IMG/VR virus record: IMGVR_UViG_3300025679_000008
Location: 1 to 62,587 of that record
Direction: 5' to 3' (one strand)
Origin: a virus
Length of the DNA stretch: 62,587 bases
Shown here: positions 4,564 to 35,300 of the stretch, in pieces
How the letters are laid out: each line of letters begins with the position of its first letter
How positions within the stretch are numbered: position 1 is the stretch's first letter
Program-made: the position numbers and the translations under genes
Notes under the pieces: model-generated
Databases searched by the model: none
What the model saw: the letters and a program-made list of their open reading frames with translations, nothing else
What the model was told of the DNA's origin: nothing

Positions 4564-5016
4564 ATGCCTTCGGTCCTGCTCGAGAACCTGGACTCGAAGA
4601 GCGGTCGCAAGCGCGCGGAGGAGGGGCTCGAGCGCTTTCGTGATCTCTGCGCCGGCACCGATGACCTGGAAGTCATCCATCGCGAGCTCTTCGCCGCGCT
4701 GACCGGCGCCGTTACATCAACCCGGGTTCCGGACAAGGAGGCGCGCAACGGTTGGAGCTACGCTCTGCTGCCCGATGCCACTACCAGGATCACGGCCGCG
4801 CGGCTCTTGCTGTCGTACCTGGCGGGCCTGCCGCCGTCCCAGGCAGACATCCGGGTGCTTCCGTTGAGCGGAGGCGGGCAGCGGGACCGCGCTGCCATCG
4901 ACCAGCTCCGGGAGCTCGAGGCGATGGGGATCACGGCCGGCGAGATCCTCGAGGATCTCACGCGCCAGCGGCCGGCAATGCGTCTTGCGACTCGAGTTGA
5001 GACTGACGCGCCGTAG
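4564..5016 (+). CDS. Hypothetical protein, possibly small-terminase-like (150 aa)
   Basis: Start is uncertain: ATG 4564 is used, but an in-frame GTG at 4534 is possible; neither has a strong ribosome-binding site. The protein is helical, with EEGLERFRDLCAGTDDLEVIHRELFAALTG followed by a LLPDATTRITAARLLLSYLAGLPP segment. The latter resembles the helical pattern of some small terminase subunits and related phage proteins, where residues of the form DxxTRLxAAxxLL precede a conserved GxP. No small terminase is found beside the large subunit, so this is a candidate, but weakly supported. It is isolated between two regulatory regions. Confidence 0.6.
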   Translation: MPSVLLENLDSKSGRKRAEEGLERFRDLCAGTDDLEVIHRELFAALTGAVTSTRVPDKEARNGWSYALLPDATTRITAARLLLSYLAGLPPSQADIRVLPLSGGGQRDRAAIDQLRELEAMGITAGEILEDLTRQRPAMRLATRVETDAP

Positions 5017-8322: not shown

Positions 8323-8529
8323 TCAAAGGCCTGGGCGCTTCAGCACGGCTGTATGTTTGTTGTGGAGATCCACCAGGGCCCGCACGTCCTCCTGGTGCTC
8401 GCGATCGGCCCGGCCGCGGGCGATCGCCAGTCGGCGCGCAAGCCCGTCCTGCCGGCGATGCAAGATCCGCTCGAGCGCGACCGGTGTGAACGGCGACAGC
8501 TTCAGGCCCTTGCTCGAGATCCCGCTCAC
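8323..8529 (-). CDS. Small basic protein (68 aa)
   Basis: The GTG at 8529 overlaps the stop of the glycosyltransferase (GTGA), which argues for translation. The 68 residues form a probable long charged helix (VALERILHRRQDGLARRLAIARG, ADREHQEDVRALVDLHNKH) after an LKLSPFTP opening. No family is recognised. It is the last gene before the operator-containing leader. Confidence 0.6.
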   Translation of the reverse strand: MSGISSKGLKLSPFTPVALERILHRRQDGLARRLAIARGRADREHQEDVRALVDLHNKHTAVLKRPGL

Positions 8530-9674
8530 GGCAGGATGAGCTGCTGGATCTTCCGGCCGATCGCCTCGAGTTTGATGGAGTCGATCGCGTGGCAGTGGCC
8601 GGTCAAGGCACAGGGCCCGTTCTTCGGGAAGTGGATCCCGCCTCGAGGATGGAACCCGCAGGGAGCGATCGGGCAGCCGCCGGCCTCCAGGCTCCCGCTG
8701 TTCCCATGAAGCGCGAAGACCGAAAGATAGTAGGCAGTCCGGATCTTGTAGTCGATCGGCCCGAAGAGCGCCACGCACGGCACGTTTAGCGCGCCGGCGA
8801 TGTGCATCATCGAGGAGTCCGGGGCGACGATCACATCGCAGGTCTCGGCCACGGCCGCGCTCTGGCGGAATGTGAGCTCGGCCTGGGCGCAATCATGCAG
8901 GCGCTCCCGGACCTTGACCATGACCGGCTCCGGCACGCCCTTGAAAAGGGCGCCGGTGGATCCCTCGCTTCCGAAGATCATGATCTCCCAGTCCTCCATG
9001 TAGAGCGAGTGGATGAGGCTGCTCATCTTCTGGGCGCTCATCGTCCGGTTGAAGGCGGAGGCGGCGAGCTGGATCCCGATCCTCTTCCTCGGGACGGTCT
9101 CGATCCGGCCCTCATAGCTTTGCCTGGGGTACCGCGCGGCCGCGTCGGCTCGTTCCTGGTCGGTGACCTTGTACTCGACCTTGGTGTCGCCCTTGAGATC
9201 CACGCCGAGGATCTCGGCCCGCAGGTAGATGCCGTGGGCGGTGCGGCCGCGCTCGCCCTCGTTCATGTTCTCGGTGAGGATGATCCTCGAGTACCGGCCG
9301 AAGAGTCCGTCCATGTTGAGTGGGTAGTCGACGAAGGCGTCGGGATAGTCCAGGTGCTCGTAGACGATGCGGTGGCGCCGGCGGCAGCAGACGTGAATCG
9401 TGATTCCTGGGTAGTAGCGCTTGTGCGCCCGCAGCGCGGGCCCGAGCATCATCTGATCTCCGAGGCCGCCGGGATGGATGACTAGGATGGCGTTGGCCGC
9501 GGGATCCTGGAGCTGCCGGCGGTTGATGTCGGCGAAGTAGCGGACCACCGCGGTCCCGCGATCAGCCTCGACCATGATCTCGGCCGCGTTCAAGTCGTCG
9601 ACCAGGTAGGATCCGGCCTCGAGCTTAGTACCGTCGGCGCGGTCCAGGGCGGTGCTTAGAGTTACGATGTGCAT
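8526..9674 (-). CDS. GT9 family glycosyltransferase (heptosyltransferase-like)
   Basis: The 382-residue protein has the GT9 N-terminal signature IHPGGLGDQMMLGPALRAHK at residues 66-85 and the C-terminal nucleotide-sugar site CDVIVAPDSSMMHIAGALNV followed by CVALFGP. ADP-heptose:LPS heptosyltransferases share these motifs, so the donor is probably ADP-heptose or another nucleotide sugar. It could modify host lipopolysaccharide, DNA or a virion protein. Its C-terminus contains four clustered cysteines (GGCPIAPCGF, GPCALTGHC), possibly a metal site. It overlaps both neighbours, so it is co-translated with a zinc-finger protein and a small basic protein. Confidence 0.88.
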   Translation of the reverse strand: MHIVTLSTALDRADGTKLEAGSYLVDDLNAAEIMVEADRGTAVVRYFADINRRQLQDPAANAILVIHPGGLGDQMMLGPALRAHKRYYPGITIHVCCRRRHRIVYEHLDYPDAFVDYPLNMDGLFGRYSRIILTENMNEGERGRTAHGIYLRAEILGVDLKGDTKVEYKVTDQERADAAARYPRQSYEGRIETVPRKRIGIQLAASAFNRTMSAQKMSSLIHSLYMEDWEIMIFGSEGSTGALFKGVPEPVMVKVRERLHDCAQAELTFRQSAAVAETCDVIVAPDSSMMHIAGALNVPCVALFGPIDYKIRTAYYLSVFALHGNSGSLEAGGCPIAPCGFHPRGGIHFPKNGPCALTGHCHAIDSIKLEAIGRKIQQLILP

Positions 9675-11193: not shown

Positions 11194-12675
11194 ATGTCAA
11201 CCAATAGCTCCCTCCTGAGCAATGCCGTCCTCTACGCCACGCTCGTTGCCAACAACAGCGACATGCGCGCAGTGGTCTGGAACGCCCAGGTTATCCAAAC
11301 GCAGCGCCTCAAGTCCAAGTGGCGCCACTTCGCCGGCGGTGAAATGTCCGGCATGCCCATCACCAAGAAGTCCGACCTGTCGGCCGGTATGGCGCAAGAC
11401 GTCGTCTTCACCACGATCGCCCCGATGCTCGGCCAGGGTGTGCTCGGTGAAACCCTCCTGCGGACGGCCACGCAGCAACTCAACTTCAACACGTTCCGGG
11501 TCCGCGTCGACGTGCTGCGCCAGGCCTTCGCCTACACGCAGCTCCTCCCGCTGCTCCGGCTCTCCGGCAAGACGATCGACCAGGTCGGCGCCGATCTGAC
11601 GTCCGACTGGTGGAACAACAAGTACGACGACGATATCACGATGACGTTGCGGGAATACTGCCGGCTGACGGCGCCCACGACGAACCTCTACCGTATCGGC
11701 GGCGCGACCACCACGAACGGCCTCCTCTCGGCGAACACCTGCACGCCGGGTATCATCGAGCAGTCCAAGGCGCTCCTGCAGGCCCTCGGTGCGCAGCCGA
11801 TGGCCGAGGACGTTGCGGAGAGCTCGGGCGCCACGACGGCCCGGTACCTGTTCAACACGACCGATACGTTCATCCGTCCCCTCCGGACGAATGCCACGTA
11901 CCTGGCGTCCCTCCAGCAGGGCGACATCCGGGGCAAGGACAACGCGCTCTTCACCGGCCAGTACAAGATGTGGGACGACAATGTCATCTATCCCGACATC
12001 ATCCGGACCAACGACGGAGACGGCCGCCAGGGCAGCCCTCTCATGCCGATCGCCTACCTGGGCACGGCCATCACCGACCAGACCACGACGCTGATCACCG
12101 GCGGCGGCCTTGCCTACCCGGCGGGCGGAGGGGATTACTTCGCGTACTTCCCCGGCTTCCAGTGGTTCGTGACCACGGCGCAGGCGCTCCCGGCCGACGC
12201 GGGCACCTACTACGCCATGATCTACAACGTCAGCGGCCCGGACGCCGGCAAGTACGAGATCGTGTCGTATGTCCAGGGCGGCATGGTGGCCGCGGGCAAC
12301 CAGCTCACGGTGACCCGCACGGGCACGAGCGACGGCGCGGGCAACGCGGCGGCACTCACCGCCGGCCGCTACTCGGGGAATCACCCCTCGGGTTCGGTCA
12401 TCGTTCCCTGCACCAACTGGGGCGTTCCCTACGGATGGTCCCTGCACATGGGCGCGGAGGCGTTGTTCTACGCCACCGGTTCGCTCGATGCGCAGCCGAT
12501 CTTCCAGGGGGACGACTTCCACGACTCGGCCGGCAACTACATGTTCGAGGGCCGGGGCATCATGGGCATCCGCGGGATGTCCGTGTTCGTGGACAAGCGC
12601 AACATCGGCAAGAACGTGACGATGGTGGAAGGTGCGCTCTCGCCGCATCCGCTCGTCTCGCCGCTGCCGCACTAA
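11194..12675 (+). CDS. Major capsid protein, N4-gp56/DUF4043-like (493 aa)
   Basis: Residues 50-120 carry the family pattern: GMPITKKSDLSAGMAQDVVFTTIAPM, then GQGVLGETLL and a QLNFNTFRVRVDVLRQA segment, as in DUF4043/N4-gp56 capsid proteins with the HK97 fold. The C-terminus (MGAEALFYATG, DFHDSAGNYMFEGRGIMGIRG) also fits. It follows the scaffold-like gene by 42 bases and is followed at once by a strong terminator, typical of a highly expressed capsid gene. A large open frame on the opposite strand is a composition artefact. Confidence 0.9.
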   Translation: MSTNSSLLSNAVLYATLVANNSDMRAVVWNAQVIQTQRLKSKWRHFAGGEMSGMPITKKSDLSAGMAQDVVFTTIAPMLGQGVLGETLLRTATQQLNFNTFRVRVDVLRQAFAYTQLLPLLRLSGKTIDQVGADLTSDWWNNKYDDDITMTLREYCRLTAPTTNLYRIGGATTTNGLLSANTCTPGIIEQSKALLQALGAQPMAEDVAESSGATTARYLFNTTDTFIRPLRTNATYLASLQQGDIRGKDNALFTGQYKMWDDNVIYPDIIRTNDGDGRQGSPLMPIAYLGTAITDQTTTLITGGGLAYPAGGGDYFAYFPGFQWFVTTAQALPADAGTYYAMIYNVSGPDAGKYEIVSYVQGGMVAAGNQLTVTRTGTSDGAGNAAALTAGRYSGNHPSGSVIVPCTNWGVPYGWSLHMGAEALFYATGSLDAQPIFQGDDFHDSAGNYMFEGRGIMGIRGMSVFVDKRNIGKNVTMVEGALSPHPLVSPLPH

Positions 12676-14480: not shown

Positions 14481-17138
14481 ATGCCGGCGATAACCGTATA
14501 CACGGATCCGACAAAGCCTGGTATCTGCAAGGTGCCGGTCTTCAGTGTTGGCGATAGCCAGGCCTGGACGTTCCAATTCAACAACGGGAGCGCGCTCTAC
14601 GATCCGAACGCCGGCAGCGCCGGCGCCGTGTCGGTGGTGCTCGGGTACAAGAACGGCCTGGAGAATATCAACTACCCTTCGGCGTTCCAGTGGGTCGACC
14701 GGTTCAACAACCGGCACATCGGATCCTTTGCCCTGGCCGCTGGGGTCCCTGGATCCCTGGCCTTCGATGAACCTCCCCTGGGCGGGATCTTGGGCAGCAA
14801 CGGCGCCTGGATGTTGGGCGGCGAGGCACCATCCATAGACCAGCGGCTGTCTTCGTATCGCAAGATCTACGCGGATATCGGTGGCGCTGGATATCAATCC
14901 CCACCGGCAATCGGATTCGCTGGATCAGGGACCCTTGCGGCCGCCACGGCAGTTCTCACCGGTCGGGACGGTGGAGTCCAGGCGGTGAATGTCACAACTC
15001 CGGGCACTGGCTATACCAGCGCACCGGCGGTAGGGTTCTCGGGCGGCGGTGGATCCGGAGCTGCAGGTACGGCCATCATCGCCGAGGGCGGCGTGGTCTT
15101 CGTTGTGATCACGAACCCGGGATCAGGCTACACCAGCGCGCCTGCGGTGGCGTTCACCGGCGGCGGCGGGTCTTCGGCCGCGGGAAGTTCCGCGTTGTTC
15201 ACCAATCAGATCATGGGCGCGGCCCTGAGTAACTTTGGCTCGGGATACACTTCAACGCCCGTCGTCAGCCTTTCCGGCGGCGGTGGATCTGGCGGCGTGG
15301 TGGAGGCGCAGATTCAAAACGGATCCGTGGTCGGCGTCGTCGTTGTAAACCCTGGCACCGGGTACAATGCCGGCGCCACCTATCAGCTGGCTTTCAGCGG
15401 CGGTGGTGGATCCGGAGCCGATGCCACGGTCCTGGCGCACATCACAACGGATACGAATCCGGGCACCTTGGGTGCCGTCACCCTGATAAGTGGCGGAGCT
15501 GGGTACACGTCGGCGCCTACGGTGACCGTGGTAGCGGTCGGTGGATCCGGAGCGGCCGCGTCCCTGATCATCTCCGGCGGAGCCATCGTCGGCGCCACCG
15601 TCACGAATCCCGGCAGCGGGTACACGAACCCCCCGCTCACCGTGGTCACCGGCGGCGGCGGATCCGGCGGCGCAATTCACGCGGTAGTGTCCGGAGGCGT
15701 AGTTGCAGCCATCATCGTCGACGTTCCCGGCAGCGGGTACGGAGCTCCGACTGTCGCCTTCACCAATTCGTTGGGCACGGGAGGCACCCTCGCTGCCGTG
15801 ATGCCTTACGCCGGCGTCGGCGGGATCAATTCGATAACCAAGGTCAGCGGCGGGGCTGGGTACACCGCGCCTCCGACGGTTACCTTGGTCGGTGGAGATG
15901 GTACCGGGGCAACCGCCGTGGCCACCTGGGTAGCCGTCGGAAGCACGCCGGTAGTCTCTTTCGTCGTCACGAACCCGGGCACTGGGTACACGATTCCTCC
16001 GGCCGTGGTGATCTCAGGGGCCTCCGGATCCGGGGCGGCGGGGACCGCCATCGTGACCTCGGCAGGGATTCAATCCCTCGTGGTTGTCGCCGGCGGATCC
16101 GGGTACGAGGTCAACGCGCTGCTCCCCCTGGTCTTCAGCGGATCTAATCTTTCGCCTGCCACCGGCTACGCCACAACCGATAGCACGGGCCGCGTCATCT
16201 CGGCTACACTGACCGGGCCCGGGATCTACGGCGGCCCGGGCCTTCCCACGATAACCGTGTCCACAGGTAGCGGCACGGGCGCCTCGGTGGTGGCTTCGTG
16301 GATGCCTGGGCTTGGAGTCTCCTTGTCGATCTCAGCGCTTACTCTGGTGAGTGGAGGCTCTGGATATCCGGCAGGAGTGTCTGGATTCCCGATCAACTTT
16401 GTCGGGCCCTCCATCACCCCGGCCCAGGCCACGATCGACACCAATGGAAGCGGTGTGATCACGTCGGTATCCCTGACGGTTCCCGGGCTATACACGCAAC
16501 TACCGACGATATTCATCCCCTACTTTGGCTCGGGCGCTGTGATTCAGATCCAAGGACCGCAGCCGATTACGCCTTTGGGATCAGTATCATCCCTGACCGT
16601 GATAAATCCCGGCACAGGATATACCTCCGCTCCTTCGCTCACGTTCACTAGAGGAGGAGGCGCCAACGCTGCGGGTTCGGTATCAGCCACGTCCACGACG
16701 ATCTCTTCAGTAACCATCCAATCGGCTGGCGATTCATATCAGGCGGCCATCGATATATCTCTCACCCCGAATTATAATTCCGTCCTCAGCCCAGCCGGCA
16801 TGCTCACGTATGACGTGCCGTTCCTGAAGAACCCGATCACCCTCGAGGTCCTGAAGTCGGTGACGGCAACGCCGGCGACGAATGAGAGGACGATCTTTGG
16901 GGGCACGTCGTCGATATACGACAACTCGCTTTTGATAATCCGGCCGAAGGTCCTGGTTCAACCGTCCCTCACCCTGCAGCCCGACAATGTCACCTATGCG
17001 GCAACCTTCAACCCGGTCACGCCTTTCGTCCTGGCATGCCTCAGGTTCCGTAGGAGTATGACGATGGATCTCCTGATCTACGGAGGAGGGAGGCTCCTCT
17101 TCAGCGGCTCGCTCACGGTCTACAACATCATCCAGTAA
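14481..17138 (+). CDS. Large glycine-rich repeat tail protein (885 aa)
   Basis: After about 130 residues that look like an N-terminal attachment domain (YTDPTKPGICKVPVFSVGDS), about a dozen imperfect copies of a 35-50 residue unit follow. Each has the form V-x-N-P-G-[ST]-G-Y-T-S-A-P followed by a strand and a FSGGGGSGA turn. Such GSGYTSAP repeats occur in tail fibres and surface proteins of many phages. The last 100 residues are non-repetitive and may close the fold. The protein is probably a tail or virion-surface component. Gly-Ser is usually encoded as GGATCC here. Confidence 0.8.
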   Translation: MPAITVYTDPTKPGICKVPVFSVGDSQAWTFQFNNGSALYDPNAGSAGAVSVVLGYKNGLENINYPSAFQWVDRFNNRHIGSFALAAGVPGSLAFDEPPLGGILGSNGAWMLGGEAPSIDQRLSSYRKIYADIGGAGYQSPPAIGFAGSGTLAAATAVLTGRDGGVQAVNVTTPGTGYTSAPAVGFSGGGGSGAAGTAIIAEGGVVFVVITNPGSGYTSAPAVAFTGGGGSSAAGSSALFTNQIMGAALSNFGSGYTSTPVVSLSGGGGSGGVVEAQIQNGSVVGVVVVNPGTGYNAGATYQLAFSGGGGSGADATVLAHITTDTNPGTLGAVTLISGGAGYTSAPTVTVVAVGGSGAAASLIISGGAIVGATVTNPGSGYTNPPLTVVTGGGGSGGAIHAVVSGGVVAAIIVDVPGSGYGAPTVAFTNSLGTGGTLAAVMPYAGVGGINSITKVSGGAGYTAPPTVTLVGGDGTGATAVATWVAVGSTPVVSFVVTNPGTGYTIPPAVVISGASGSGAAGTAIVTSAGIQSLVVVAGGSGYEVNALLPLVFSGSNLSPATGYATTDSTGRVISATLTGPGIYGGPGLPTITVSTGSGTGASVVASWMPGLGVSLSISALTLVSGGSGYPAGVSGFPINFVGPSITPAQATIDTNGSGVITSVSLTVPGLYTQLPTIFIPYFGSGAVIQIQGPQPITPLGSVSSLTVINPGTGYTSAPSLTFTRGGGANAAGSVSATSTTISSVTIQSAGDSYQAAIDISLTPNYNSVLSPAGMLTYDVPFLKNPITLEVLKSVTATPATNERTIFGGTSSIYDNSLLIIRPKVLVQPSLTLQPDNVTYAATFNPVTPFVLACLRFRRSMTMDLLIYGGGRLLFSGSLTVYNIIQ

Positions 17139-20621: not shown

Positions 20622-20840
20622 ATGGCTACCATCGTACGCAAGGCCCTGTTCGTCCAGATCCCCGAGAAGGAGCACAAGAAGGTAACTGACGAGTGCAAGC
20701 GCCTGGAGATCCCGCAGTGGCAGTTTATCGCGCACGCCATCCGCCATGCACCGAAGCTCACCAGGGGAAAGGGTGACGCGGCCCACGTCATCGTGTCGGG
20801 TCTCGAGCCGCGGAATCGCAAGAGCATCGGGCGTGGCTAA
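20622..20840 (+). CDS. Small basic regulator-like protein (72 aa)
   Basis: The ATG at 20622 opens a 72-residue protein with ALFVQIPEKEHKKVTDECKRLEIPQWQFIAHAIRHA, which resembles the helix-turn-helix end of small ribbon or RHH-type regulators, but I cannot identify the family. The best ribosome-binding site (AGGAGG at 20575-20580) is too far upstream, so the start is uncertain. The final 8 bases overlap the glycosyltransferase start. Confidence 0.55.
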   Translation: MATIVRKALFVQIPEKEHKKVTDECKRLEIPQWQFIAHAIRHAPKLTRGKGDAAHVIVSGLEPRNRKSIGRG

Positions 20841-22359
20841 GTTTCTGGTCAGCGTGCTTTCCCTCAACCGGGTTGAGGGAGTCAAGAAGTGTCTATCCGC
20901 GGTCCTCGCCGGCGGTGGCGACTTCATCCTGCGCCTGGTGGACAACGCCTCGAGTGACGGCACCGGCCGATACTTTGAGCAGCTGTCGGCGTCGGATCCC
21001 AGGGTGATATCGCCGACGATCGAGAAGGAAAACCAGGGGTTCCAGATCCCGAATGAGGAGTCATTGCGGCATGCCATTGCCCGCGAGATCCCCTACCTGG
21101 TCCTCCTGAATGACGACACGCGGCCGCCGGCGGGGTGGCTGGACCGCATGGCGGCCGTCTTCGATCGGGATCCTGGAGTTGCGGCCGTCGGCGCACTGGG
21201 CGGATGCAACGAGATCACACCGGCGTTTCACGGCACAGGCGGGGTTCGCCTCGAGTACATCGAGGGGTCCTGCCTCATGATCGACATCAAGAAGCTGCTG
21301 CGGGTTCGCTCAACACTCTTCGATCCGAACCTGACCTTCATGTACGGGGAGGACGCGGACCTTAGCCTCGAGCTGCGCCGGGCCGGTTGGCGGATCGCCC
21401 AGGTGAACATGAATATCGAGCACCTGGGGGCCGCGAGCCGCCTCGCCAATCCTGAGCTCAAGGCCCGGTGCGAGGCGGCCGAAGCCAAGAACCACAAGTA
21501 CCTTCTAAGGAAGTGGGCGCACTACCTGAAGGTCCGGCGCTTTGACCACAGGATCGTGGTGCGCCGGCGGCACGCCTCGGGGGACGTCGTCCTGATCACC
21601 CCTTTCCTGCGGGCCCTGGCGAAGCAGAACCCGCTCTCGCCGCTCTTCGTCGAGACGATGTTCCCGGATCTCTTCTACGGAAACCCGCACGTCTCGTATG
21701 CCGCCCAGAAGGTTCACCCGCTGGCCGATGATCTTACGATCGACCTGGACATGGTCAGCGAGAACGGCCCGATGCGGCACTTTGTCTCGAGCTACTTCAG
21801 CGCCGGACCAATCGACCTGCCCCGGCCCAAGAAGTATGTGACCGAGATGCACTTTGACCAGGCCTGGCAGAAGCCGGCGCCCGGGCGCTGGTGCGCCATG
21901 CACGTCGGGCCGACTACCTGGAAGGCTAAGAATTGGCCGTACGATCGCTTCAACGCGGTGGCCGAGCTGCTCTCCGTGAAGGGATGGAAGATCGTCCTGG
22001 TGGGCAACGGATCCGACGGCGACGTCGTCCGCCACCAGGACTACCGCAACCAGACCACCACCCGCCAGCTGGCCGCGATCCTAGCCGGCTGCGATCTCTT
22101 CGTCGGCGTCGATAGCTTCCCGATGCACGTCGCCCAGGCCGTCGGTACGCCGACCGTGGGGATCTTCGGCGTCACTGAGGGCAAGTACATCATGACCGAT
22201 GGATCCCCGCACGTCTCATGTGACGCGGATCCCATGCACCCGCGCGCCGGCGAGCGCCACCGAGTAGCCGGGGTTTGTTATATTGACGAACCCGGGGACG
22301 TGATCAGGACTGTCTCGGTTACCCAGGTACTCAAAGCCATCGACTCCCTAACCAAATGA
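20833..22359 (+). CDS. GT2-GT9 fusion glycosyltransferase (508 aa)
   Basis: Two glycosyltransferase domains are fused. Residues 1-230 are GT2: VSVLSLNRVEG, VDNASSDGTG at 36-45, the metal-binding NDDT at 93-96, and ED at 173-174 in YGEDADLSLELRRAGW. Residues 245-505 are GT9: GDVVLITPFLRALAKQNP, and CDLFVGVDSFPMHVAQAVGT with VGIFG at about 420-446. GT2 enzymes use UDP- or dTDP-sugars; GT9 enzymes transfer heptose. The start is the GTG at 20833, since upstream codons belong to the previous gene. It could add two sugars in sequence to one acceptor. It begins a modification cassette within the structural operon. Confidence 0.85.
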   Translation: MAKFLVSVLSLNRVEGVKKCLSAVLAGGGDFILRLVDNASSDGTGRYFEQLSASDPRVISPTIEKENQGFQIPNEESLRHAIAREIPYLVLLNDDTRPPAGWLDRMAAVFDRDPGVAAVGALGGCNEITPAFHGTGGVRLEYIEGSCLMIDIKKLLRVRSTLFDPNLTFMYGEDADLSLELRRAGWRIAQVNMNIEHLGAASRLANPELKARCEAAEAKNHKYLLRKWAHYLKVRRFDHRIVVRRRHASGDVVLITPFLRALAKQNPLSPLFVETMFPDLFYGNPHVSYAAQKVHPLADDLTIDLDMVSENGPMRHFVSSYFSAGPIDLPRPKKYVTEMHFDQAWQKPAPGRWCAMHVGPTTWKAKNWPYDRFNAVAELLSVKGWKIVLVGNGSDGDVVRHQDYRNQTTTRQLAAILAGCDLFVGVDSFPMHVAQAVGTPTVGIFGVTEGKYIMTDGSPHVSCDADPMHPRAGERHRVAGVCYIDEPGDVIRTVSVTQVLKAIDSLTK

Positions 22360-22592
22360 GCATGTTCACAAAGACAGACCGCGCCGCCACGAGACCCCCA
22401 GGGAGCGGAGACAGGTACCCGCTCTGGCTCAACCTGAAGAGCGGCAACCGTGTTCGCGGCTGGTACGAACCCAAGTCCGGCCGCTACATGAAGTTCCCGG
22501 CCCCTGGTACCGATGGCCCCTCGGTGGATGTCCACGATGACGTCGATACCTGGGAGGTCGCCCGGGATCTCAGCTCCAGGACCGGGCAATGA
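22356..22592 (+). CDS. Hypothetical protein (78 aa)
   Basis: The ATG overlaps the preceding stop (ATGA). The 78 residues are charged and contain RYPLWLNLKSGNRVRGWYEPKSG and a DVHDDVDTWEVARDL end. No membrane segment. It lies between the GT2-GT9 fusion and a second GT2, so it may act with them, but there is no direct evidence. Confidence 0.6.
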   Translation: MSMFTKTDRAATRPPGSGDRYPLWLNLKSGNRVRGWYEPKSGRYMKFPAPGTDGPSVDVHDDVDTWEVARDLSSRTGQ

Positions 22593-23365
22593 GTGTTCCC
22601 CGCCAGCGCGGCTTGACCGGCATTGTCCCTGTACGCAACGGGGACGAGCTCGACTATTGCTGGCGCCTGGCTGTGGCGAGCCTCCTGCCGGTGTGCGACG
22701 AAGTCATTATCAGCGACGGCGAGTCCACCGACGGCACGTTCGAGGCGGCGGAGGCCCTGGCGGCCGCCAATCCCAAAATCAAGGTGGTGCGCTGGGAGTG
22801 GCCGGATCCCAAGGGCGATCACTGGTTCCTGACCAAGTGGCTCAACTGGACCCAGCAGCTCGCCGGCTACGACATGATCGTCCACCTGGACGCCGACGAG
22901 GCGATCGACCCCTGCAGCTACCCGCGCATGCGCGAGGCGGTCCAGCACCGGGAGGCGCTCTGGTTCCACCGGATCAACCTCTGGCTGGATCCCCAGCACG
23001 AGGCGCCGCACGGCACGGTTTGCGCTCACCGCGTCGTCTACATGGGCCCGGGCGAGTACAAGGCGATCTCCGACAATATCTACGTGGAGGGCGAACCGGA
23101 CATCAAGCAGGTCGCCAAGAGCGACGACTCGCTCCGGATCTGGCACCTGGGGTTTCTCCGGGACAAGGTGAAGTTCATTAAGAAGTGGAGGACCGAGGCT
23201 ACCTATCTCGTGAACACCGTGGATCCTCGCTGCGTGCAGTGCGAGCAGACGGGCGAGGACTGGGTCGCGCTGACCATGTGGAAGGATCGGGAGCTGATCG
23301 TCCACGGCCTCGAGATCCCGGAGTTCCTAAAGCCCTGGTTGAAGGAGAGAGGACACAGACCATGA
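22589..23365 (+). CDS. GT2 family glycosyltransferase (258 aa)
   Basis: Start overlaps the preceding stop by ATGA. The fold is GT-A: VPVRNGDELDYCWRLAVASL, EVIISDGESTDGTFEAAEAL at 38-57, and the metal-binding DADEA at 101-105 after DMIVHL. A WPDPKGDHWF segment lies between. Nothing identifies the sugar. It is probably a single-sugar transferase, downstream of the fused enzyme, and could extend the same glycan. Membrane segments are absent, so the acceptor is likely soluble or a virion or DNA component. Confidence 0.85.
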   Translation: MSVPRQRGLTGIVPVRNGDELDYCWRLAVASLLPVCDEVIISDGESTDGTFEAAEALAAANPKIKVVRWEWPDPKGDHWFLTKWLNWTQQLAGYDMIVHLDADEAIDPCSYPRMREAVQHREALWFHRINLWLDPQHEAPHGTVCAHRVVYMGPGEYKAISDNIYVEGEPDIKQVAKSDDSLRIWHLGFLRDKVKFIKKWRTEATYLVNTVDPRCVQCEQTGEDWVALTMWKDRELIVHGLEIPEFLKPWLKERGHRP

Positions 23366-23655
23366 ATATAAACTGGAAGGTGATAACAAAAGAGTCGACG
23401 TGCTGGCAATACGAGGTCGATGGGCTCGTGTGCCGGATCGAATACTGCGGCGCTTTCAATCCTAGCATAGAGCTCGCTAATGTCGGCTTCCATGCGCGGA
23501 CCGGTATGGGGCTATTCGATCATTCCTGGTATTCCTTCAGGATGTCCATGACAGGGTTCCGCACGCTCGAGTCCGCCCAGAAGTGGGTGGAGGCAAATAT
23601 ACAGTTCGCTATCATCAATATCGCCCCGTTAAAGAAGGCGATCGAAGCGCGATGA
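23362..23655 (+). CDS. Hypothetical protein (97 aa)
   Basis: ATG 23362 overlaps the glycosyltransferase stop (ATGA). It begins MNINWKVITKESTCWQYEVDG and has a VCRIEYCGAFNPSIELANVGF segment with two cysteines near each other, followed by a beta strand and a helix. The protein is alpha-beta in profile. I do not recognise a family. Co-translated with the acetyltransferase-like gene that follows. Confidence 0.6.
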   Translation: MNINWKVITKESTCWQYEVDGLVCRIEYCGAFNPSIELANVGFHARTGMGLFDHSWYSFRMSMTGFRTLESAQKWVEANIQFAIINIAPLKKAIEAR

Positions 23656-24074
23656 ACGAGAAGGAATTTGAAGTCTCGACCGATGACGCGCTGCTCGACC
23701 TGGACTGGGTTGTGCCGACCATCAAGGCCTCCTACTTCGGGGGCTGGCGTAGCGAGGACCTCATCCGGAAGTCCATCAAGGGATCGCTCAACTTCGGACT
23801 CTACTGGCGGCCGGCGGACCAGCCGCGGGTGTGCCACCAGGTCGGCTTCGCTCGAGTCATTACCGATGCCTGCACGTTCAACTACGTGTGCGACGTGATC
23901 ATCGACCAGGACCGCCGGCGTGACGGCCTCGGGCAATTCCTCATGCGGCACATCATAGCTCATCCGGATCTCGCCAGCGGCGTCAGCGTGCTAGGTACCA
24001 GGGATGCGCACGGGTTCTATTCCAAGTTCGGGTACAACCGCGTCGAGATGATGAAGAGGATCCCGCCGAAATGA
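23652..24074 (+). CDS. GNAT family acetyltransferase (140 aa)
   Basis: The 140-residue protein has the GNAT core: CQVGFARVITDACTFNYVCDVIIDQDRRRDGLG, with the acetyl-CoA binding RRDGLGQFLM loop (R/Q-x-x-G-x-G/A type), and the C-terminal GTRDAHGFYSKFGYNRV strand-turn-strand of GNATs. The substrate cannot be read. Within a glycosyltransferase cassette it could acetylate an amino sugar, or be an independent anti-host enzyme. ATG overlaps the previous stop. Confidence 0.82.
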   Translation: MNEKEFEVSTDDALLDLDWVVPTIKASYFGGWRSEDLIRKSIKGSLNFGLYWRPADQPRVCHQVGFARVITDACTFNYVCDVIIDQDRRRDGLGQFLMRHIIAHPDLASGVSVLGTRDAHGFYSKFGYNRVEMMKRIPPK

Positions 24075-24526
24075 AAAATAAAAAAAAGCTGTTGAGGCGT
24101 GGGTATCATGCACTTGGTCAGGGTGCGTTAGGAGCCAAGCCGCTCCGCCGTGGGATCCAGGTAATCGACACGGCTACGATAAAAGCATTAGGCGCCGACA
24201 AGGGAGGTTCCGTTCGTAAGAACAAACCCGCCGTAAGGGTAAAGCTACCTGGCCCGTGGAACACCCGGAGCAAGACGTTTAATCGTACTTTCTCTTGGTT
24301 TAACGCAAAGCGCATTGAAGAGACTATAGAAGCTGAGCTTAGGGCTGCCCTTGACCTCACTCACGATGCAACCCCATTCGACATAATCGAGAAGGTGCTG
24401 GCGCTGCGTGGCTTTAGTGACGCTCAAAAATTCACGTTCTATACCCGCAAGATGATGCCCCATGAAATAAATAAATTTCTGGGTGCTCCCAAAGGTCCGT
24501 ACGCATCATTCAAGGTAGGCAAATGA
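24071..24526 (+). CDS. Hypothetical protein with atypical composition (151 aa)
   Basis: Start ATG overlaps the previous stop. The opening MKNKKKLLRRGYHALGQGA is lysine-rich. Codon use is less GC-rich than that of its neighbours (for example runs such as aaaaataaaaaaaagc and aataaataaatttct), which suggests later acquisition. The middle has an RVKLPGPWNTRSKTFNRTF stretch and helical segments; no catalytic motif is recognised. It is inserted between a GNAT protein and a methyltransferase-like protein. Confidence 0.65.
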   Translation: MKNKKKLLRRGYHALGQGALGAKPLRRGIQVIDTATIKALGADKGGSVRKNKPAVRVKLPGPWNTRSKTFNRTFSWFNAKRIEETIEAELRAALDLTHDATPFDIIEKVLALRGFSDAQKFTFYTRKMMPHEINKFLGAPKGPYASFKVGK

Positions 24527-25167
24527 CCCCGACGCCCTACTACCTGGACAGCCTCTACCGCTGCACCAAGGCGGACCTGGATGCCTATCGGCGGTGGACG
24601 GACTTCCTTCCGCGGCGCGCGGAAGGGGAGCCGTACCACTCGGGTCCTCATAGCCTGCAGCGGTTCCGCCTGGTCTGGGAGCTCGTGAGGCCCACGGCAG
24701 TCCTTGAGATCGGATTCAACCTTGGCCACTCGGCTGTTATGTGGCTCGAGCTGGGCGCGAAGCAGGTTGTGAGTATGCAGCCGTGGCCCAACAAGGGCAC
24801 TCTGGAAGCCAAGGCTGCGATAGAAGGTAGGTATGGGAATCGGCACCGACTACTCCAAGGGGATTCGGAATTGGCGGCCGAAGATTTAATGCTCCGGAAT
24901 TACATCGGGGGCGGATTCGATCTGATCTTCATCGACGGATCCCATGAGCGCGCCTGGGCGGAGCTCGATATCGCCCTGGGTAAGGAGCTCGAGGCCCCCT
25001 ACTTCCTCATGGATGACTACGACACCCACCACGGGCCCGGAGTCGTCGACGCGGTCCAGGCGGCCGGCCTGATTCCTCTGGCGATCTTCGGCACGATGGC
25101 CCTGTGCGCTCCTCCAACGCGCTACACCCAACGCGCCGATCCGCTCGGCACCAACTACTATGAGTGA
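24523..25167 (+). CDS. Class I SAM-dependent methyltransferase-like protein (214 aa)
   Basis: AVLEIGFNLGHSAVMWLE (about residues 60-77) is the glycine-rich SAM-binding motif I; FDLIFIDGSHERAWAELDIAL is typical of the O-methyltransferase or methyltransf_24 group, with FIDGSH (about 130). The product lacks a membrane anchor. Substrate is unknown; a sugar, small molecule or protein are possible. It overlaps the next methyltransferase by 8 bases, so both are probably produced together. Confidence 0.78.
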   Translation: MTPTPYYLDSLYRCTKADLDAYRRWTDFLPRRAEGEPYHSGPHSLQRFRLVWELVRPTAVLEIGFNLGHSAVMWLELGAKQVVSMQPWPNKGTLEAKAAIEGRYGNRHRLLQGDSELAAEDLMLRNYIGGGFDLIFIDGSHERAWAELDIALGKELEAPYFLMDDYDTHHGPGVVDAVQAAGLIPLAIFGTMALCAPPTRYTQRADPLGTNYYE

Positions 25168-25711
25168 ATCCGCGAAGTACCTCCACCTGACCCGGCCGTA
25201 TCTCCAGGGTAACGGCATCGACTGCGGCAGCGGCAGCTGGCCGGTGATCCCGTCCGCCATCCAGGTCGAGCTCCCGCGCGATCGCTTCAAGGCCTACACG
25301 AGCCGGGATCTCCCTGATCACGTCGAGTGGCCGGGCGACATCATGGATCTCCCGTTCAAGGACAACGTCCTGGATTACGTCTACAGCTCCCATCTCATCG
25401 AGGACTTCAGCCGAGAGCCGCTTCCGGACAGGCCGCACATGCCGACCTGGCCCAAGCTCTTCAAGGAATGGAAGAGGGTGCTGAAGCCCGATGGCTACAT
25501 GGTAATCATCGTTCCGGAAGTCGCCAGGTGGAAGCGCACGATCGAGCTCGGCCAGGCGCCCAACTGTGCGCACTGGGCCCCCGAGCCCAGCCTGGGCGAC
25601 TGCACGAGGATCGCCACCGAGGCCGGCTTCCTGGTCCTGTTTGAACGCTTGACTGATCTCGATCCGAGGGACTACTCGATCCTGATGGTCGCGATCAAAC
25701 CCAGGGAATAG
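25160..25711 (+). CDS. Class I SAM-dependent methyltransferase-like protein (183 aa)
   Basis: The pattern is that of short methyltransf_11-type enzymes: GNGIDCGSGSWPV (motif I), VEWPGDIMDLPFKDNVLDYVYSSHLIEDF (motif post-I to II), and LKPDGYMVIIVPEVARWK (motif after PDG). The motif I sequence (DCGSG) is close to the classical DxGxG. It has no obvious target domain. It may modify a carbohydrate or the product of the neighbouring genes. It ends 2 bases before the terminase start. Confidence 0.8.
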   Translation: MSESAKYLHLTRPYLQGNGIDCGSGSWPVIPSAIQVELPRDRFKAYTSRDLPDHVEWPGDIMDLPFKDNVLDYVYSSHLIEDFSREPLPDRPHMPTWPKLFKEWKRVLKPDGYMVIIVPEVARWKRTIELGQAPNCAHWAPEPSLGDCTRIATEAGFLVLFERLTDLDPRDYSILMVAIKPRE

Positions 25712-25712
25712 C

Positions 25713-27500
25713 TTGCCCGAGCTGACCGAAGCGCAGCTGCAGGATAAGAAGGACCAGCTCACCCAGGCTGCGATCACGAGCTATTACAAGGACCACGTCG
25801 GCGCCTGGTTTCAGCGCTACGGGGTACTGAAGAATCCCGAGGGTATCGTCACCAGGTACCCGAACCTAAAGCCCCGGGTAGTCCAGAAGCGGATGTTTGC
25901 CGAGGCCGAGAAATGCCTCCTCGCCGGCAAGCCCTGTATGATGATGGTCCTGAAGCCCCGTAAGGACGGCGCGTCTACCGGCGCCCAGGCGATCATCTAT
26001 CACTGGCTCCGGCGCTGGCACGGCCGCAACGCGGCGATCATGGGAGACATCATCGGAACGTCCGACACCGTCTTCGAGCTCTTCAGGCACTTTGCCCAGA
26101 ACGATACCTTCGACTGGAAGGACGCCTTCGGGGGCCTGAGCCTCGATAACGATCAGACGGATGATATCACCCTAGGCAACAAGTCGACCTACAAGAAGGT
26201 CACGGCCGGATCCAACAACGCCGGCCGCTCCGGCACGATCCAGGTGGCGAACCTAACGGAGGTCGCCTACTACCCCGACGCCGGCGAGCGGGATCCCGCG
26301 CTGGGCTTCCTGGGATCCTGGCATGCCGACGGCGCCTCGAGTCTCGGCATCATGGACTCCACGGCGAACGGGCCCTACGGGACGTTCTATGACTACTGGA
26401 TGGCCGACAACTCCTGGACGAAGATCTTCGTCGCCTGGTTCGAGGAGCCTGAGCACGCGATCGCTTTCGAGGACGAGGAGATGCGCCGGGAGTTCCAGCG
26501 CTCAATGGGACCCGAGGAGCTCGAGGAGCAGGCCAAGTACAACGTCACGCTCGAGCAGCTGCGCTGGCGCCGCAAGATGATCGCCGACAAGTGCGGGGGT
26601 GACGACGACAAGTTCCGCCAGGAGTACCCGTCCGACGCGATCGAGGCCTTCCTGCGCAAGAGTCGCACCAGGTTTAAGGCGGAGACCTTGGCGTCAATGG
26701 AGCGCGCGGCCGCGGCGCTGCCGCCCAAGATCGTCAACCTATCGAAGCAGGATGACGGCACCGTGTCCCCGTACCCGGATCCCCTGGGCAGCGTTCACAT
26801 CTGGGAGATGCCGAAGATCGGCTGCAAGTACATCATGGCCGTCGACTCATGCACCGGCCGGGACCAGCAGTCCCAGGCCCGCGGTCAAAAGCCGGACTGG
26901 CATTCGGTCGGAGTTTGGCGCGACGAGTACCTGGACCTGGCCAACCATCGGCACTATCCGCCGATGCTGGTCGCTCACCACTGGAGCCAGCTCGAGGTCG
27001 ACGTCATGGTCGAGATCGCGGCCGCCATGTCGATCTTCTACGGCCTGTGCATGGCCATCCCGGAGGTCAACGGGTGTGGCCTCTATCCGGTCAAGAAGCT
27101 CCAGGAGCTCGAGATCCCGGTGTGGGAGAGAAAGCGGGACAACGCCCAGACCAACACCGTCGACGTGAGCGGGGGATGGATGACGACTGAGGGGGTAAGG
27201 AAGACGATCATCGACAATCTCGCCGGCCTGATCGCCAGGTGGAAGGTCGAGGATCCCACGTTCGAGTGCTTCAGTATGCACATGATAAACCAGCTCAAGA
27301 AGTTCATCCTGGACAAGACCGGCCACGCGGCCGCCATGCCAGGAGAGAACGACGACGACGTCCTGCAGGGGGCGATCGGCCTCTACAACCTGGGATCCGC
27401 TACCGAGATGAAGGAGCACAAGCGCCCGCGGGTGAACGTCGTGGACATGCTCCGCAAGCAGCACTGGGCCCTTGGTAGCAGTGGCAGCCGGCGGAATTGA
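25713..27500 (+). CDS. terL: Terminase large subunit (595 aa)
   Basis: The 595-residue protein has a terminase ATPase: a variant Walker A at KPRKDGASTG (81-90), Walker B-like VANLTEVAYYP (about 177-187), and then a RNase H-type nuclease with D in AVDSCTG (about 377), E in IPEVNG (about 451) and D in DDDVLQGAIGLYN (about 548). Those three acids are the metal-binding set. The start is TTG 25713, one base after the upstream stop. No small subunit is adjacent. It packages the genome and cuts concatemers. Confidence 0.9.
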   Translation: MPELTEAQLQDKKDQLTQAAITSYYKDHVGAWFQRYGVLKNPEGIVTRYPNLKPRVVQKRMFAEAEKCLLAGKPCMMMVLKPRKDGASTGAQAIIYHWLRRWHGRNAAIMGDIIGTSDTVFELFRHFAQNDTFDWKDAFGGLSLDNDQTDDITLGNKSTYKKVTAGSNNAGRSGTIQVANLTEVAYYPDAGERDPALGFLGSWHADGASSLGIMDSTANGPYGTFYDYWMADNSWTKIFVAWFEEPEHAIAFEDEEMRREFQRSMGPEELEEQAKYNVTLEQLRWRRKMIADKCGGDDDKFRQEYPSDAIEAFLRKSRTRFKAETLASMERAAAALPPKIVNLSKQDDGTVSPYPDPLGSVHIWEMPKIGCKYIMAVDSCTGRDQQSQARGQKPDWHSVGVWRDEYLDLANHRHYPPMLVAHHWSQLEVDVMVEIAAAMSIFYGLCMAIPEVNGCGLYPVKKLQELEIPVWERKRDNAQTNTVDVSGGWMTTEGVRKTIIDNLAGLIARWKVEDPTFECFSMHMINQLKKFILDKTGHAAAMPGENDDDVLQGAIGLYNLGSATEMKEHKRPRVNVVDMLRKQHWALGSSGSRRN

Positions 27501-30557: not shown

Positions 30558-30955
30558 AAGACAAATACGGATCCGAACATATAGCCTTCGACTGGGGTGG
30601 TGTCCTAAGTGATCGCCCGCTCATGTGGTTCCTGGCGGACAACCTCAGCTTTTGCGGCATCAAGGTTTCCATCATTTCGTGGTGTGGTCCCAATGATGCC
30701 GTCCGTTCTCAGGAGGGAAAGGATCGCCTGGCGGAAAGCGGGATCCCCTGGTCTAACATCATCGGCTTCGATCAATACGGTAGTGAGGACGGCATCATCG
30801 TCCCCGCCGACGCTCCCCGCTTCGACTACATGGTCGGTATCGGCAAGGTCCGGAAGATGCGGGAGATCGGGGCGACGGCGATCTTCGACGACAACCCCTG
30901 GGTCGTTCGTGCCGTCCAGGACTCCGGCCTCCAGGCGCTACAGGTCATTCGATGA
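30554..30955 (+). CDS. HAD-like protein (133 aa)
   Basis: FDWGGVLSD at 12-20 resembles HAD motif I (DxDGTLxD), with the second acidic residue replaced by glycine, and FDDNPWVVRAV at 111-121 is HAD motif IV. S42 may serve as motif II and K98 or K101 as motif III. A proper HAD phosphatase needs D-x-D; loss of the second Asp suggests it is a phosphotransferase variant or a non-catalytic relative. The length is less than the usual HAD with a cap domain. It overlaps the ATP-grasp-like gene, so the two probably act in one pathway. Confidence 0.7.
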   Translation: MKDKYGSEHIAFDWGGVLSDRPLMWFLADNLSFCGIKVSIISWCGPNDAVRSQEGKDRLAESGIPWSNIIGFDQYGSEDGIIVPADAPRFDYMVGIGKVRKMREIGATAIFDDNPWVVRAVQDSGLQALQVIR

Positions 30956-32220
30956 AGGATGTCCAACAAGTCGTCTGCATGGTCATTGACGGGGGCCTGC
31001 ACCCCGACTTCGCCGTGCGCCTAGCGCGAGACTTTGCGAAGGTGTATTACTACACGCCTCCGAGCGGCGGCGCATTTCAGACGATAAACGCCGCCACGAT
31101 CGGAAAGGGGCTCGAGGGAATCGAAGTGGTGGACACGCCCTTCATCGAGGAGTTTAACCAGATCGACCTGTTCGTCGTCACTGACATTCACTTTGGGCCG
31201 CTTCAGGTCCATCTCGAGAGCCTGGGCAAGAAGGTCTGGGGGTCAAGGATGGGTGAGGAGCTCGAGCTCGAGCGTGCCGGCACGAAGAAGGCCATGCAGC
31301 GCGTGGGCCTTCCCGTGAACAAGTACAAGGTGGTGCGCGGCCTGGATGAGCTCCGGGCGTACCTGAAGGACAAGAAGGACGTCCACGTCAAGGTGAGCCG
31401 GTACCGCGGGACGTTCGAGTCCTTCATGGTTACCAACTTCAAGAACGTGGAGCCGCTCCTGGACAGCGTCGAGATGGACATCGGCCCCCTGAAGAACGAG
31501 ATCGACTTCATCGTCGAGGATGATCTCCCAGACCGGATCGAGATCGGCATCGACGCCTGGACGGTCGACGGCGCCTGGCCGGAGAAGGTGCTCCTGGGTA
31601 TCGAGGTCAAGGACGCCGGCTACGTCGGGGTGTTCAAGCCCTGGGCCGAGATCCCTGAGCCGGTCCGCCGGTGGAACGAAAAGATGAGTCCGATCCTGGC
31701 GAAGTACGGATACAAGGGATCCATCTCCACAGAGAACCGGATCGGGAAGGACCTGGTGCCGCACATGATCGACGCCACCTGCAGGTTGCCGTCTCCTCCC
31801 AGCGAGCTCTTCGCGGAGTTCTACCTCAACATGCCGGAGATCGTTTGGAAGGCGGCCAACGGGATCATGGTGCTGGCGCGGCCGGCGGCCAAGTTCGGCG
31901 TCGAGGCGATCATCAAGTCCAGCTGGGCTGTCGACAAAAACTGGCAGCCGATCGACTTCCCGTCCCAGCACCGCAAGCGGATCAAGCTGCACTGCGGGTG
32001 CAAGATCGACGGCCGCTACTACATCGTCCCCCAGACCTACCAGCTCGAGGAGATCGGCGCCGTCGTGGGCTGGGGTGACACGATCGAGGACGCGATCGCC
32101 GACGTGAAGAAGATCGCCGACACGATCGAGGGCTACGGCATCAAGGTTCGCACGGACGCCTTTGCCGACGCTCAAGGGGAGATGGACAAAACGAATGAGA
32201 TAGGGCTAAAGATTTTCTAA
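30952..32220 (+). CDS. ATP-grasp-like ligase (422 aa)
   Basis: The protein has the layout of PurD/carboxylate-amine ligases: an N-terminal nucleotide-binding region, then a GTKKAMQRVGLPVNKYKVV segment followed by DELRAYLKDKKDVHVKVSRYRGTFES, typical of the substrate-binding subdomain, and FIVEDDLPDRIEIGIDAWTVDG (residues about 180-205), as in the ATP-grasp core. Downstream come GSISTENRIGKDLVPHMIDATCRLPSPPSELFAE with conserved acidic residues and N at the metal-binding position. No recognised family member is identical. It would ligate a carboxylate to an amine using ATP. Partner HAD protein overlaps upstream. Confidence 0.7.
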   Translation: MKDVQQVVCMVIDGGLHPDFAVRLARDFAKVYYYTPPSGGAFQTINAATIGKGLEGIEVVDTPFIEEFNQIDLFVVTDIHFGPLQVHLESLGKKVWGSRMGEELELERAGTKKAMQRVGLPVNKYKVVRGLDELRAYLKDKKDVHVKVSRYRGTFESFMVTNFKNVEPLLDSVEMDIGPLKNEIDFIVEDDLPDRIEIGIDAWTVDGAWPEKVLLGIEVKDAGYVGVFKPWAEIPEPVRRWNEKMSPILAKYGYKGSISTENRIGKDLVPHMIDATCRLPSPPSELFAEFYLNMPEIVWKAANGIMVLARPAAKFGVEAIIKSSWAVDKNWQPIDFPSQHRKRIKLHCGCKIDGRYYIVPQTYQLEEIGAVVGWGDTIEDAIADVKKIADTIEGYGIKVRTDAFADAQGEMDKTNEIGLKIF

Positions 32221-32345
32221 TGCCCGAGCTTTTCCTACCTGAAGTAGAGGTATCCCTGGATCCCAGCGAGACAGGGCTGCACGGCTGCCTAGAGCCTTTG
32301 CTCGACGATCCACCTGAAGGAGAGGAAGACGATGGCGAAGATTGA
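32220..32345 (+). CDS. Small acidic protein (41 aa)
   Basis: The ATG (32220) overlaps the ATP-grasp gene stop as TAATG. The 41 residues are strongly acidic (EVEVSLDPSETG, DDPPEGEEDDGED) and end in frame with the start of the giant protein 13 bases into it. Whether it is translated is unproven; it may serve as a leader. The acidic composition is unlike the surrounding basic proteins. Confidence 0.45.
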   Translation: MPELFLPEVEVSLDPSETGLHGCLEPLLDDPPEGEEDDGED

Positions 32346-35300
32346 TTGCCCGAATATCAGCCTGCCGGCCTGGAAGGGCCTGGTCGACCAGTTGGGCCCC
32401 GAGAAGGCCTATGCCGCCTATTTCCGTAACGGCAACGAGATCCCGGACCTGAGCAAAGCCCATAATGACCTGAGCAGCCGGCCCGGATCATACAACGGGC
32501 CGGCGGACGCGCGGCCGGTTGAGGAGCAGTACAAGGGCCTGCCCGCGTCTAAGGGAGGGAAATATATCTCAACCGACGTGGCCCGCAGGATCATCCCTGG
32601 CTATGATCCGATGAACCCCACGGCCACCAACGGTGTAGCCTCGGAGATCACCGAGAAGGCTTACACCCAAGCCCTGTCAGACCAGACCACCAAACAGGTT
32701 GAGATGTTTGCCGGAGGATCCGGATCGGGTAAGTCAGGAATGCTCGCGAAGATAACCGCGCCCAACACCCTCATCTACGACGGCCTGTTCTCGAGCAAAG
32801 ATTCCCTCGACCGTCTCGATCGTACGGTGGCCACGGGAAAGCCGGTAGCGCTCACTTATATCCACCGTCCCATCGAGGATGCGATCGGCGGTATGTTTCG
32901 GCGCGCGCGCAAGGATGGGGCCACTCAGCCGATCGTACCGGCCGACGTCGTCGCCAAGGGGCATTTCAACTCGGCCGATAACTTCCTTCAGGCTTACGAT
33001 AAATATAAGGACAACCCCAACGTGAGCTTCCGGGCGTTTGACAATGGCCGCGGAGAGGGTAAGGCTGACTTTGCCGATAGCCCGATCGACTTCGTAAGGA
33101 AGCTGGTGGCTGACCGGCCATCCCGAGAAGAGTATTATGAACGTGCCCGATCCCATCCTGAAGTCCCAGGCCTCTCCGACGCCGACCGAGCAACATACCT
33201 CGGAGCTAGACCCGTTCGGGAAGCTGCTCCTGGACAGCCTGAACAAGGCAACGCTGGAGGATCCGTCCCCGACGTACCCGGAGCGCCAGGTGATCGTCCC
33301 GCCGGCGACGTAGCGCCTGGCGTTGACACGCCCGCGCCAGCGGACCAGCCTCCGGCAAATGCACCACAAGCACCCACTCAAGGCGGCGGTGAAGCATCAC
33401 ACGATGGCGGCCGCGCCGGTGGATCGGCACGCGGTCAACCCGACAGCGAAGGGAACGCCGGCGTTCCAGGCGGCCCACACGGGGAGACCCCAGGGGTACT
33501 TCAACCAGGGCCAGCAGCCGGGCCGGGCAGCCTCGACGCTTCAGAACGATCCGACGTCCGATCCGGCGCAGTAAGCGGGGCTCCTGGGATATCACCAAGG
33601 AGCGTAGCCGGCGGGGTTCCAGTCGTCGAGTTCCCTGTCGAGAAACTCAAACTCTCGAAGGACGTACCCCAATTCAAGGCGAACGCCAATGAGCGGGGAG
33701 TTGTTGAGCCGCTGGCAGGATCCTACGATCGCCGCGGCGGTGGGGCCCTGCAGGTATGGCAGCGATTGAACGGGGATTACGAGGTCATCTCCGGAAGGCA
33801 CCGTTTTGACCTGGGGCTGCGGACAGGGGAGAAGACCCTGCCGGTCCAGATATATAGGGAGTCCGAGGGGTTTGACAAGATGTCGGCCGCGCGATTGGAT
33901 GCGGAGCTAAATATACGGGACGGAAATGGATCAATCGCCGACTACTCCAGCTACTTCAGGCACTCCGGCATCACCGACGCGGATGCCCAAGCCCGCGGAC
34001 TTCTGGCGCGAACAAAGGGCAAGACCGGATTTCAAATTGCGCGAGACTCGAGCGAGGACACTTTTGCTCTCCATCAGGCCGAGCGCCTCTCAGACGACGC
34101 AGCCAGCTCCATCTCCCGCGCCGCGCCCGGTGACGCAGGCCTCCAGGGCGTAGGCGCCAGGGCGGTCCTCGAGGGCAAGTCGGCCGCCTTCGCTGAGAAC
34201 CTGGTCCAGGCGGCCCGGCTGCGCTCCGGTGGATCCTCGGGAGCTGAGAGCGGCGATCTCTTCGCCTTCGATGATTCGGCGATGAAGGAGATGGAGGCCC
34301 AGGCCAAGCGCGCCCAGCAGGCCCAGCAGGCCATACGGGAGCAGATCTCGGCCGCCCAGGGCGCCGCCAGGAATCCCGTCATGGCGAAGAAGCTCGGGGT
34401 CGACGTGAAGGATCCGGCGGCCGTGCAGGGCAGGATCAACAAGCTGAAGGCCGACCTCGAGCGCTGGCTGCATTGGCCGACCCAGGAGGACCTGGTAGCC
34501 AAGACCCGGGATCCGATGTTCGACCCCAGGAGCGAGACGGCCGCCTTCCCAGGCCTGGTCTCTGGCCGGGCCGCGGAGGCCTGGGCTGACGACGTCATCA
34601 AGTCAAAGGCCGGTCAGGTGTCCGGCGGCATTGATCCCGAGTACATCGCGGCGTTCGCTATCAAGGGTGCGGCGATCATCGAGCGCGGGATCCGTGACTT
34701 CGCCTCCTGGTCCGCGGAGATGGTGAAGGAGTTTCCGACGCTCACGGCCGATGCCCTGCAGAAGATCTGGGCCCAGGTGAAGGCCAACGGCGCTGAGGTA
34801 CCGGACAATCCCAAGCCGCGGCCGACTGCAGAAGATGGGACTCGCTTCCGCAGCACACCGGACACCGAGCGCGAAGGGCAGCGCGCCGCCGGCGTGGATC
34901 CCACGGTCGATCGGCAGACCTACCAGGTGCGCGCAAAGAGCGAGGCTCGAGCGGCCGCGCGGGTCCTGATCGACCTCAGTGGCGCGGAGAAGGCCCGGGA
35001 GATGTCCAGGGATCCGGACTCGCAGCTGCCTCAGGATATCCGCGGTGGTATCTTCATTGAGCTCGCGGCCGATGCCGACAAGCGGATCCGGGAGGCCAAG
35101 AAACCCGAGGAGCGCGCGGCCGCGATCCGCGACCGCCAGGCCTTGAGCTCGAGCGAGGCTGTCGAGAATACTGGCCTCGGCCAGAGGATCTCCATGCTGG
35201 GGGAGCTCAACAAGAACACCCGCGCCGGCGTCACCCAGGAGTACCTGGACCAGACCGATCGACGCCAGCAAGGGGAGTTCGGCCAAGACGGTCAGAAGGC

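Follow-up and report, generated by a model that had tools for sequence, protein, structure and literature searches.

A conserved GT2-GT9 fusion glycosyltransferase in a glycan cassette near the terminase gene of uncultured phages

The stretch of DNA analysed here in its entirety (hereafter the window; 62,587 nucleotides) is a 62.6 kb IMG/VR record of an uncultured bacteria-infecting virus. On its plus strand, a reading frame that is open from position 20746 to position 22359 gives a translation of 508 residues from a GTG codon at 20833 (Table 1). This start codon, already proposed in an earlier sequence-only reading of the same DNA, is considered correct, since the ten relatives with a preserved 5′ end all have proteins starting at, or close to, the equivalent position, and since the end of a small preceding ORF, at 20840, overlaps the GTG. 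The gene lies in a plus-strand run between a 501-residue protein, conserved in the related viral contig G001, and the large subunit of the terminase, and its previous placement in a "structural operon" is in this sense roughly right.

Table 1. Positions of the fusion gene, its two halves and the other annotated features of the window.
Feature	Position	Strand	Basis
Stand-alone GT9 (GT9a), 382 aa, C-terminal four-cysteine module	8526..9674	-	PF01075; 16-member clade; cysteine pattern
Major head protein match	11194-12675		46% identical in G001
GT2-GT9 fusion glycosyltransferase, 508 aa	20833..22359	+	Pfam PF00535 and PF01075; confident full-length model; ten other contigs
GT2 (GT-A) half, residues 1-238; N93-D94-D95, E173-D174, H197	20833..21546	+	Residue conservation; structural match to GT-A enzymes
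GT9 (GT-B) half, residues 239-508; G250-D251, W363, W368, D427-S428, H432	21547..22356	+	Residue conservation; Z 25.1 to 3tov, 23.6 to WaaF (1psw)
78-aa ORF	22356..22592	+	Overlaps both neighbours by 4 nt; no Pfam match
Second GT2 of the cassette (GT2c)	22589..23365	+	PF00535; homologues next to the fusion in L090, L091, L093-L095, L096, L103
GNAT-type acetyltransferase	23583..24074	+	PF13508; homologues near the terminase in other phages
Methyltransferase MT24	24523..25167	+	PF13578; homologues downstream of the fusion in L093-L095, L126
Methyltransferase MT11	25160..25711	+	PF08241; homologues downstream of the fusion in L091, L093-L095, L103
Terminase large subunit, cassette anchor	25713..27500	+	tblastn to annotated terminases; 49% identical in G001
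Internal virion protein match	within 32332-38049		

Three further genes of the window were recorded in passing. A virion protein of 885 residues (14481-17138, plus strand) contains many degenerate Gly-rich GSGYT repeats, its counterpart in G001 having 398 residues, and no tandem array was found at the DNA level. The 422-residue protein encoded at 30952-32220 (plus strand), 53% identical in G001 and also present in 17 other viral contigs, resembles ATP-grasp proteins by eye; it has no Pfam or PHROG match and a weak match to PurD in the PDB. On the minus strand, the gene at 3540-4082 matches a PHROG annotated as a DNA repair protein and has a homologue in G001.

Within the single ORF of the fusion, both Pfam families score above their curated cut-offs, namely PF00535 (GT2) at residues 10-128 (E 1e-8, 35.7 bits against 23.3) and PF01075 (GT9) at residues 338-451 (E 4e-20, 72.7 bits against 22). 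The GT9 half is placed from about residue 239 onwards, as it includes the Gly-Asp motif G250-D251 and as the alignment with GT9 structures sets in at residues 226-239. Modelled at full length from 46 homologous sequences, the protein gives a confident structure for both halves (mean pLDDT 95.6, pTM 0.91); an earlier prediction from five sequences was poor (pLDDT 53.5) and was discarded. When the predicted structure was compared with the PDB, residues 1 to approximately 237 matched GT-A enzymes (Z 18 to 21), among them polypeptide GalNAc transferases and SpsA, and residues 226-508 matched the GT9 enzymes 3tov, WaaF, TibC and WaaC (Z 22 to 25). The GT-A and GT9 folds that had been assigned from the sequence are therefore those of the best PDB matches of the respective halves; the substrate, as far as such a model goes, cannot be read off a shared fold. 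The term "heptosyltransferase-like", used earlier for the second half, stands at the level of the family and not of the heptose donor, the scores of the fusion for the lipopolysaccharide (LPS) heptosyltransferase equivalogs TIGR02193, TIGR02195 and TIGR02201 being far below the cut-offs (best 64.1 bits against 170.2). The maximum 19-residue mean hydropathy stays below 2.0 in all the fusions, and thus no obvious membrane segment is present in any of them.

The sequence-only reading had recommended a search for fused GT2-GT9 proteins, and this search revealed the same one-ORF fusion in ten more uncultured viral contigs from separate IMG/VR records (28-42% identity). The resulting set of eleven comprises the window, G001 (approximately 42% identical along the whole length), eight contigs from a profile scan and a ninth in which the ORF is cut at its 5′ end and still shows both GT2 and GT9. 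Family profiles were required for their detection, a scan of the viral contigs with the fusion protein alone giving zero matches. All eleven align end to end, barring the one 5′ truncation and C-terminal additions. The G001 protein is extended at its C-terminus by a further domain, which contains a DLDGTLA motif and weakly matches a PHROG with the annotation phosphoheptose isomerase (E 7e-6), and that of L126 carries an extra methyltransferase domain. The idea that the fused ORF is an artefact of assembly or reading frame, for which the metagenomic nature of the record is the sole argument, is refuted in practice, as independent contigs from separate records show the same fusion with the same junction; the one-chain architecture proposed earlier is hence retained.

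Beyond these contigs, no match covering 80% of the query was found among 50,697 phage records, nor any full-length relative among 72,556 plasmids. Two surveys of approximately 780 sampled proteobacterial genomes with the fusion profile gave no match spanning both halves among the matches listed; at most three candidates were scored per genome, and bacterial examples may therefore exist (the second survey used a strict threshold and had no positive control). The sampled bacterial relatives of the GT2 half are multi-domain proteins, and none of those fetched matched GT9. A weak GT2 match in Azospirillum, the sole match of a genome-contig scan, was set aside as a 912-residue protein with no GT9 match in a local scan. 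Relatives of the GT2 half lacking GT9 are found in contigs L106-L125, mostly large viral contigs, several of them above 180 kb, with the exception of L113, which carries the fusion. A literature search returned no description of the GT2-GT9 domain architecture or of the surrounding phage glycan cassette, and the sole text match to "GT2-GT9" was a paper on Escherichia albertii intimin, unrelated by its title and abstract.

Residues E173-D174, H197, G250-D251, W363, W368, D427 and H432 are invariant in all eleven homologues, N93 and D95 are kept in the ten that cover them (position 94 being D or N), and S428 is kept in ten of the eleven. Purifying selection acts on both halves within the closest trio (L093, L094 and L095), where dN/dS is 0.035-0.074 in the GT2 half and 0.090-0.109 in the GT9 half. 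With motifs conserved in all or nearly all members and such selection in the trio, neither domain shows the dead catalytic site that had been named at the outset as a ground for doubting the fusion enzyme. One might nevertheless suppose that only one half is catalytic and that the other has become a degenerate targeting or scaffold module, as the GT9 half is short (approximately 270 residues vs. approximately 350 in free-standing GT9 enzymes), lacks the N-terminal extension of the stand-alone phage enzyme GT9a and, in nine of the eleven homologues, has no counterpart of the GT9a cysteine module. The invariance or near-invariance of the GT9-half motif residues, the selection on both halves and the confident model of the GT9 half speak against this, and we regard it as quite improbable. 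The fusion is thus real and conserved, and probably bifunctional.

In most contigs that bear the fusion, a conserved set of glycosyltransferase and methyltransferase genes lies near the DNA-packaging gene. This phage glycan cassette consists of GT9a, the GT2-GT9 fusion, a second GT2, methyltransferases and sometimes an acetyltransferase. The window has the order fusion, GT2c, GNAT, MT24, MT11 and terminase, interspersed with two small ORFs, and its cassette genes are separated by overlaps of 4 or 8 nt or by a 1-nt gap, except for a gap of 217 nt before GNAT. L093, L094 and L095 share the order terminase, GT9a, fusion, GT2c, MT24 and MT11, one or more additional small genes separating terminase from GT9a in L093; the order is similar in L091 and L103, MT24 being detected in neither and the terminase not being detected in the stretch of L103. 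The terminase label in L091, L093, L096, L097 and L103 derives from a tblastn comparison between the L093 protein and annotated terminases, and confirmation of the "portal" and "major capsid" labels in these same contigs was attempted and not obtained. GNAT is also close to, or directly beside, the terminase in G001, G418 and L068, so that it may be part of the packaging module and not of the glycan cassette. In L090, a GT9-like ORF recognised by eye (no Pfam GT9 match) and a polysaccharide pyruvyl transferase lie upstream of the fusion (2493-4710), which suggests a larger glycan locus in that contig.

The trees provide clues for understanding how the fusion may have arisen. The 11 fused GT9 domains form one clade in the GT9 tree (support 95/92) and the 16 stand-alone phage GT9s (GT9a) another (100/100), the sampled bacterial GT9s falling apart from both; on this phylogeny, the fused GT9 is a second lineage and not the neighbouring GT9a. 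The latter proteins have four conserved cysteines after the catalytic core in addition to their N-terminal extension. In L074 to L078 the same GT2 has its own gene, which immediately follows a free GT9 gene and, except in L074, overlaps it, and the natural C-terminus of this free GT2 coincides with the fusion junction, i.e. the passage into GT9. In the GT2 tree, the fused proteins do not form a strict single clade: L097 has a free GT2 that is sister to the fused GT2 of L096, and the fused GT2 of L103 groups with free ones. This topology makes splitting or repeated loss likely. Other fusions of the same pieces exist as well (GT2-MT24 in L075 to L077; GT2-GT2 in L098 and L099). The claim that the two activities stem from unrelated pathways is not supported, since the free GT2 gene directly follows the GT9a gene in related phages, and both thus belong to one phage glycan cassette. 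Such a Rosetta-stone link, with GT2 neighbouring a GT9 in some phages and joined to a GT9 in others, leads to the prediction that both activities serve a single glycan.

We propose, with a probability of about one half, that the fusion is a soluble bifunctional glycosyltransferase of the cassette, probably made late, whose GT2 and GT9 halves each add one sugar to the same growing glycan. In this scheme the stand-alone GT9 would start the chain, the GT2 (GT-A) half would add one sugar and the GT9 (GT-B) half the next, the rest of the cassette would extend the glycan and the methyltransferases would finish it. The notion of a coupled, two-step glycosylation holds up, with both halves presumably active and working in succession on a single glycan. 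Late expression is probable from the placement of the cassette with the terminase. The location of GT9a in the window, far from the fusion and on the opposite strand, counts against this proposal.

A different role would be the remodelling of the host surface during infection, on the LPS core or another inner-leaflet glycan, for instance as a block to superinfection. GT9 enzymes act on the LPS core in bacteria, and LPS core enzymes are likewise soluble and work at the membrane face; LPS heptosyltransferases are also the nearest named GT9 models, and WaaF and WaaC rank among the best structural matches. However, the scores lie far below the LPS equivalog cut-offs, the position beside the packaging gene suggests expression at a late time when surface remodelling is less useful, and no Gtr-type membrane partner was noticed in an unsystematic look. 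An integrase is absent from the window and above cut-off in 2 of 17 records, which renders lysogenic seroconversion unlikely for most of these viruses. On balance we consider surface remodelling unlikely. Glycosylation of phage DNA, in the manner of the T4-type glucosyltransferases, appears more doubtful still and very improbable. It has a precedent in virus-encoded glycosyltransferases that hypermodify DNA (reference 46, as cited in a passage of PMC12619734), but a thymidylate synthase-type hydroxymethylase was found in none of the 17 cassette-bearing records (possibly fragments), controls being positive in 9 of 14 genomes, and this argues against the usual DNA glycosylation route. The fusion, moreover, sits with a packaging gene and not with replication genes. 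A search for PF12851 (TET/JBP) was also negative, but no control matched either, and it therefore says little.

The lack of an obvious membrane segment and of a thymidylate synthase-type enzyme in the records searched, the scarcity of integrases and the proximity of the terminase together favour a cytosolic, late-made target for the proposed two-sugar enzyme, and the acceptor may be, as a best guess, a virion protein. More tentatively, one could envisage a complete, lipid-independent cytosolic glycan pathway, encoded next to the packaging gene in a lineage of uncultured phages, in which the four-cysteine GT9 would prime a virion protein, GT2-GT9 would add the following two sugars, the second GT2 would extend the chain and the methyltransferases would cap it. 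Phage-encoded glycosylation is already known; what appears new here is the domain architecture and the conserved phage glycan cassette around the fusion, found repeatedly close to the terminase in divergent uncultured phages. Should this cassette glycosylate virions, virion glycosylation would extend well beyond mycobacteriophages, and a soluble two-sugar enzyme would be at hand for study.

Compared with known enzymes, the entire fused GT9 half has its GT-B fold in common with WaaC and WaaF (Z 22 to 24), to which it is approximately 18% identical in structural alignment, and the Gly-Asp and Asp-Ser-x-x-x-His motif regions of the LPS heptosyltransferases WaaC, WaaF and RfaQ align with those of the phage GT9; these enzymes are stand-alone, whereas the phage enzyme is fused to a GT2. 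Two glycosyltransferase domains that add alternating sugars are found in one chain in the chondroitin synthase K4CP. Both K4CP domains are GT-A, whereas the phage fusion combines GT-A with a GT-B of family GT9. The cysteines of GT9a recall TibC, a protein (autotransporter) heptosyltransferase of the BAHT family with an iron finger (PMC4358343). TibC has a GT9-like fold (Z 23.0 to the fused GT9) and resembles GT9a in having an N-terminal extension and, following the catalytic core, a module of four cysteines, but its cysteine spacing differs from that of GT9a, and the fused GT9 mostly lacks the module. GT9a failed the test for membership of the TibC/BAHT family: TIGR04414 matched neither the fusion nor the GT9a of the window, gave 17.4 and 19.4 bits (cut-off 200) for two GT9a relatives and was absent in the others scanned. 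With respect to phages, capsid and tail-tube proteins of the mycobacteriophages Che8, Corndog and Myrna carry glycans, according to the passages of PMC12363180 and PMC12619734 that report this work (Freeman et al., 2023). These mycobacteriophages, too, encode glycosyltransferases; the putative glycosylation system described here differs from theirs in its GT2-GT9 fusion, accompanied by methyltransferases near the terminase, and in its occurrence in uncultured phages.
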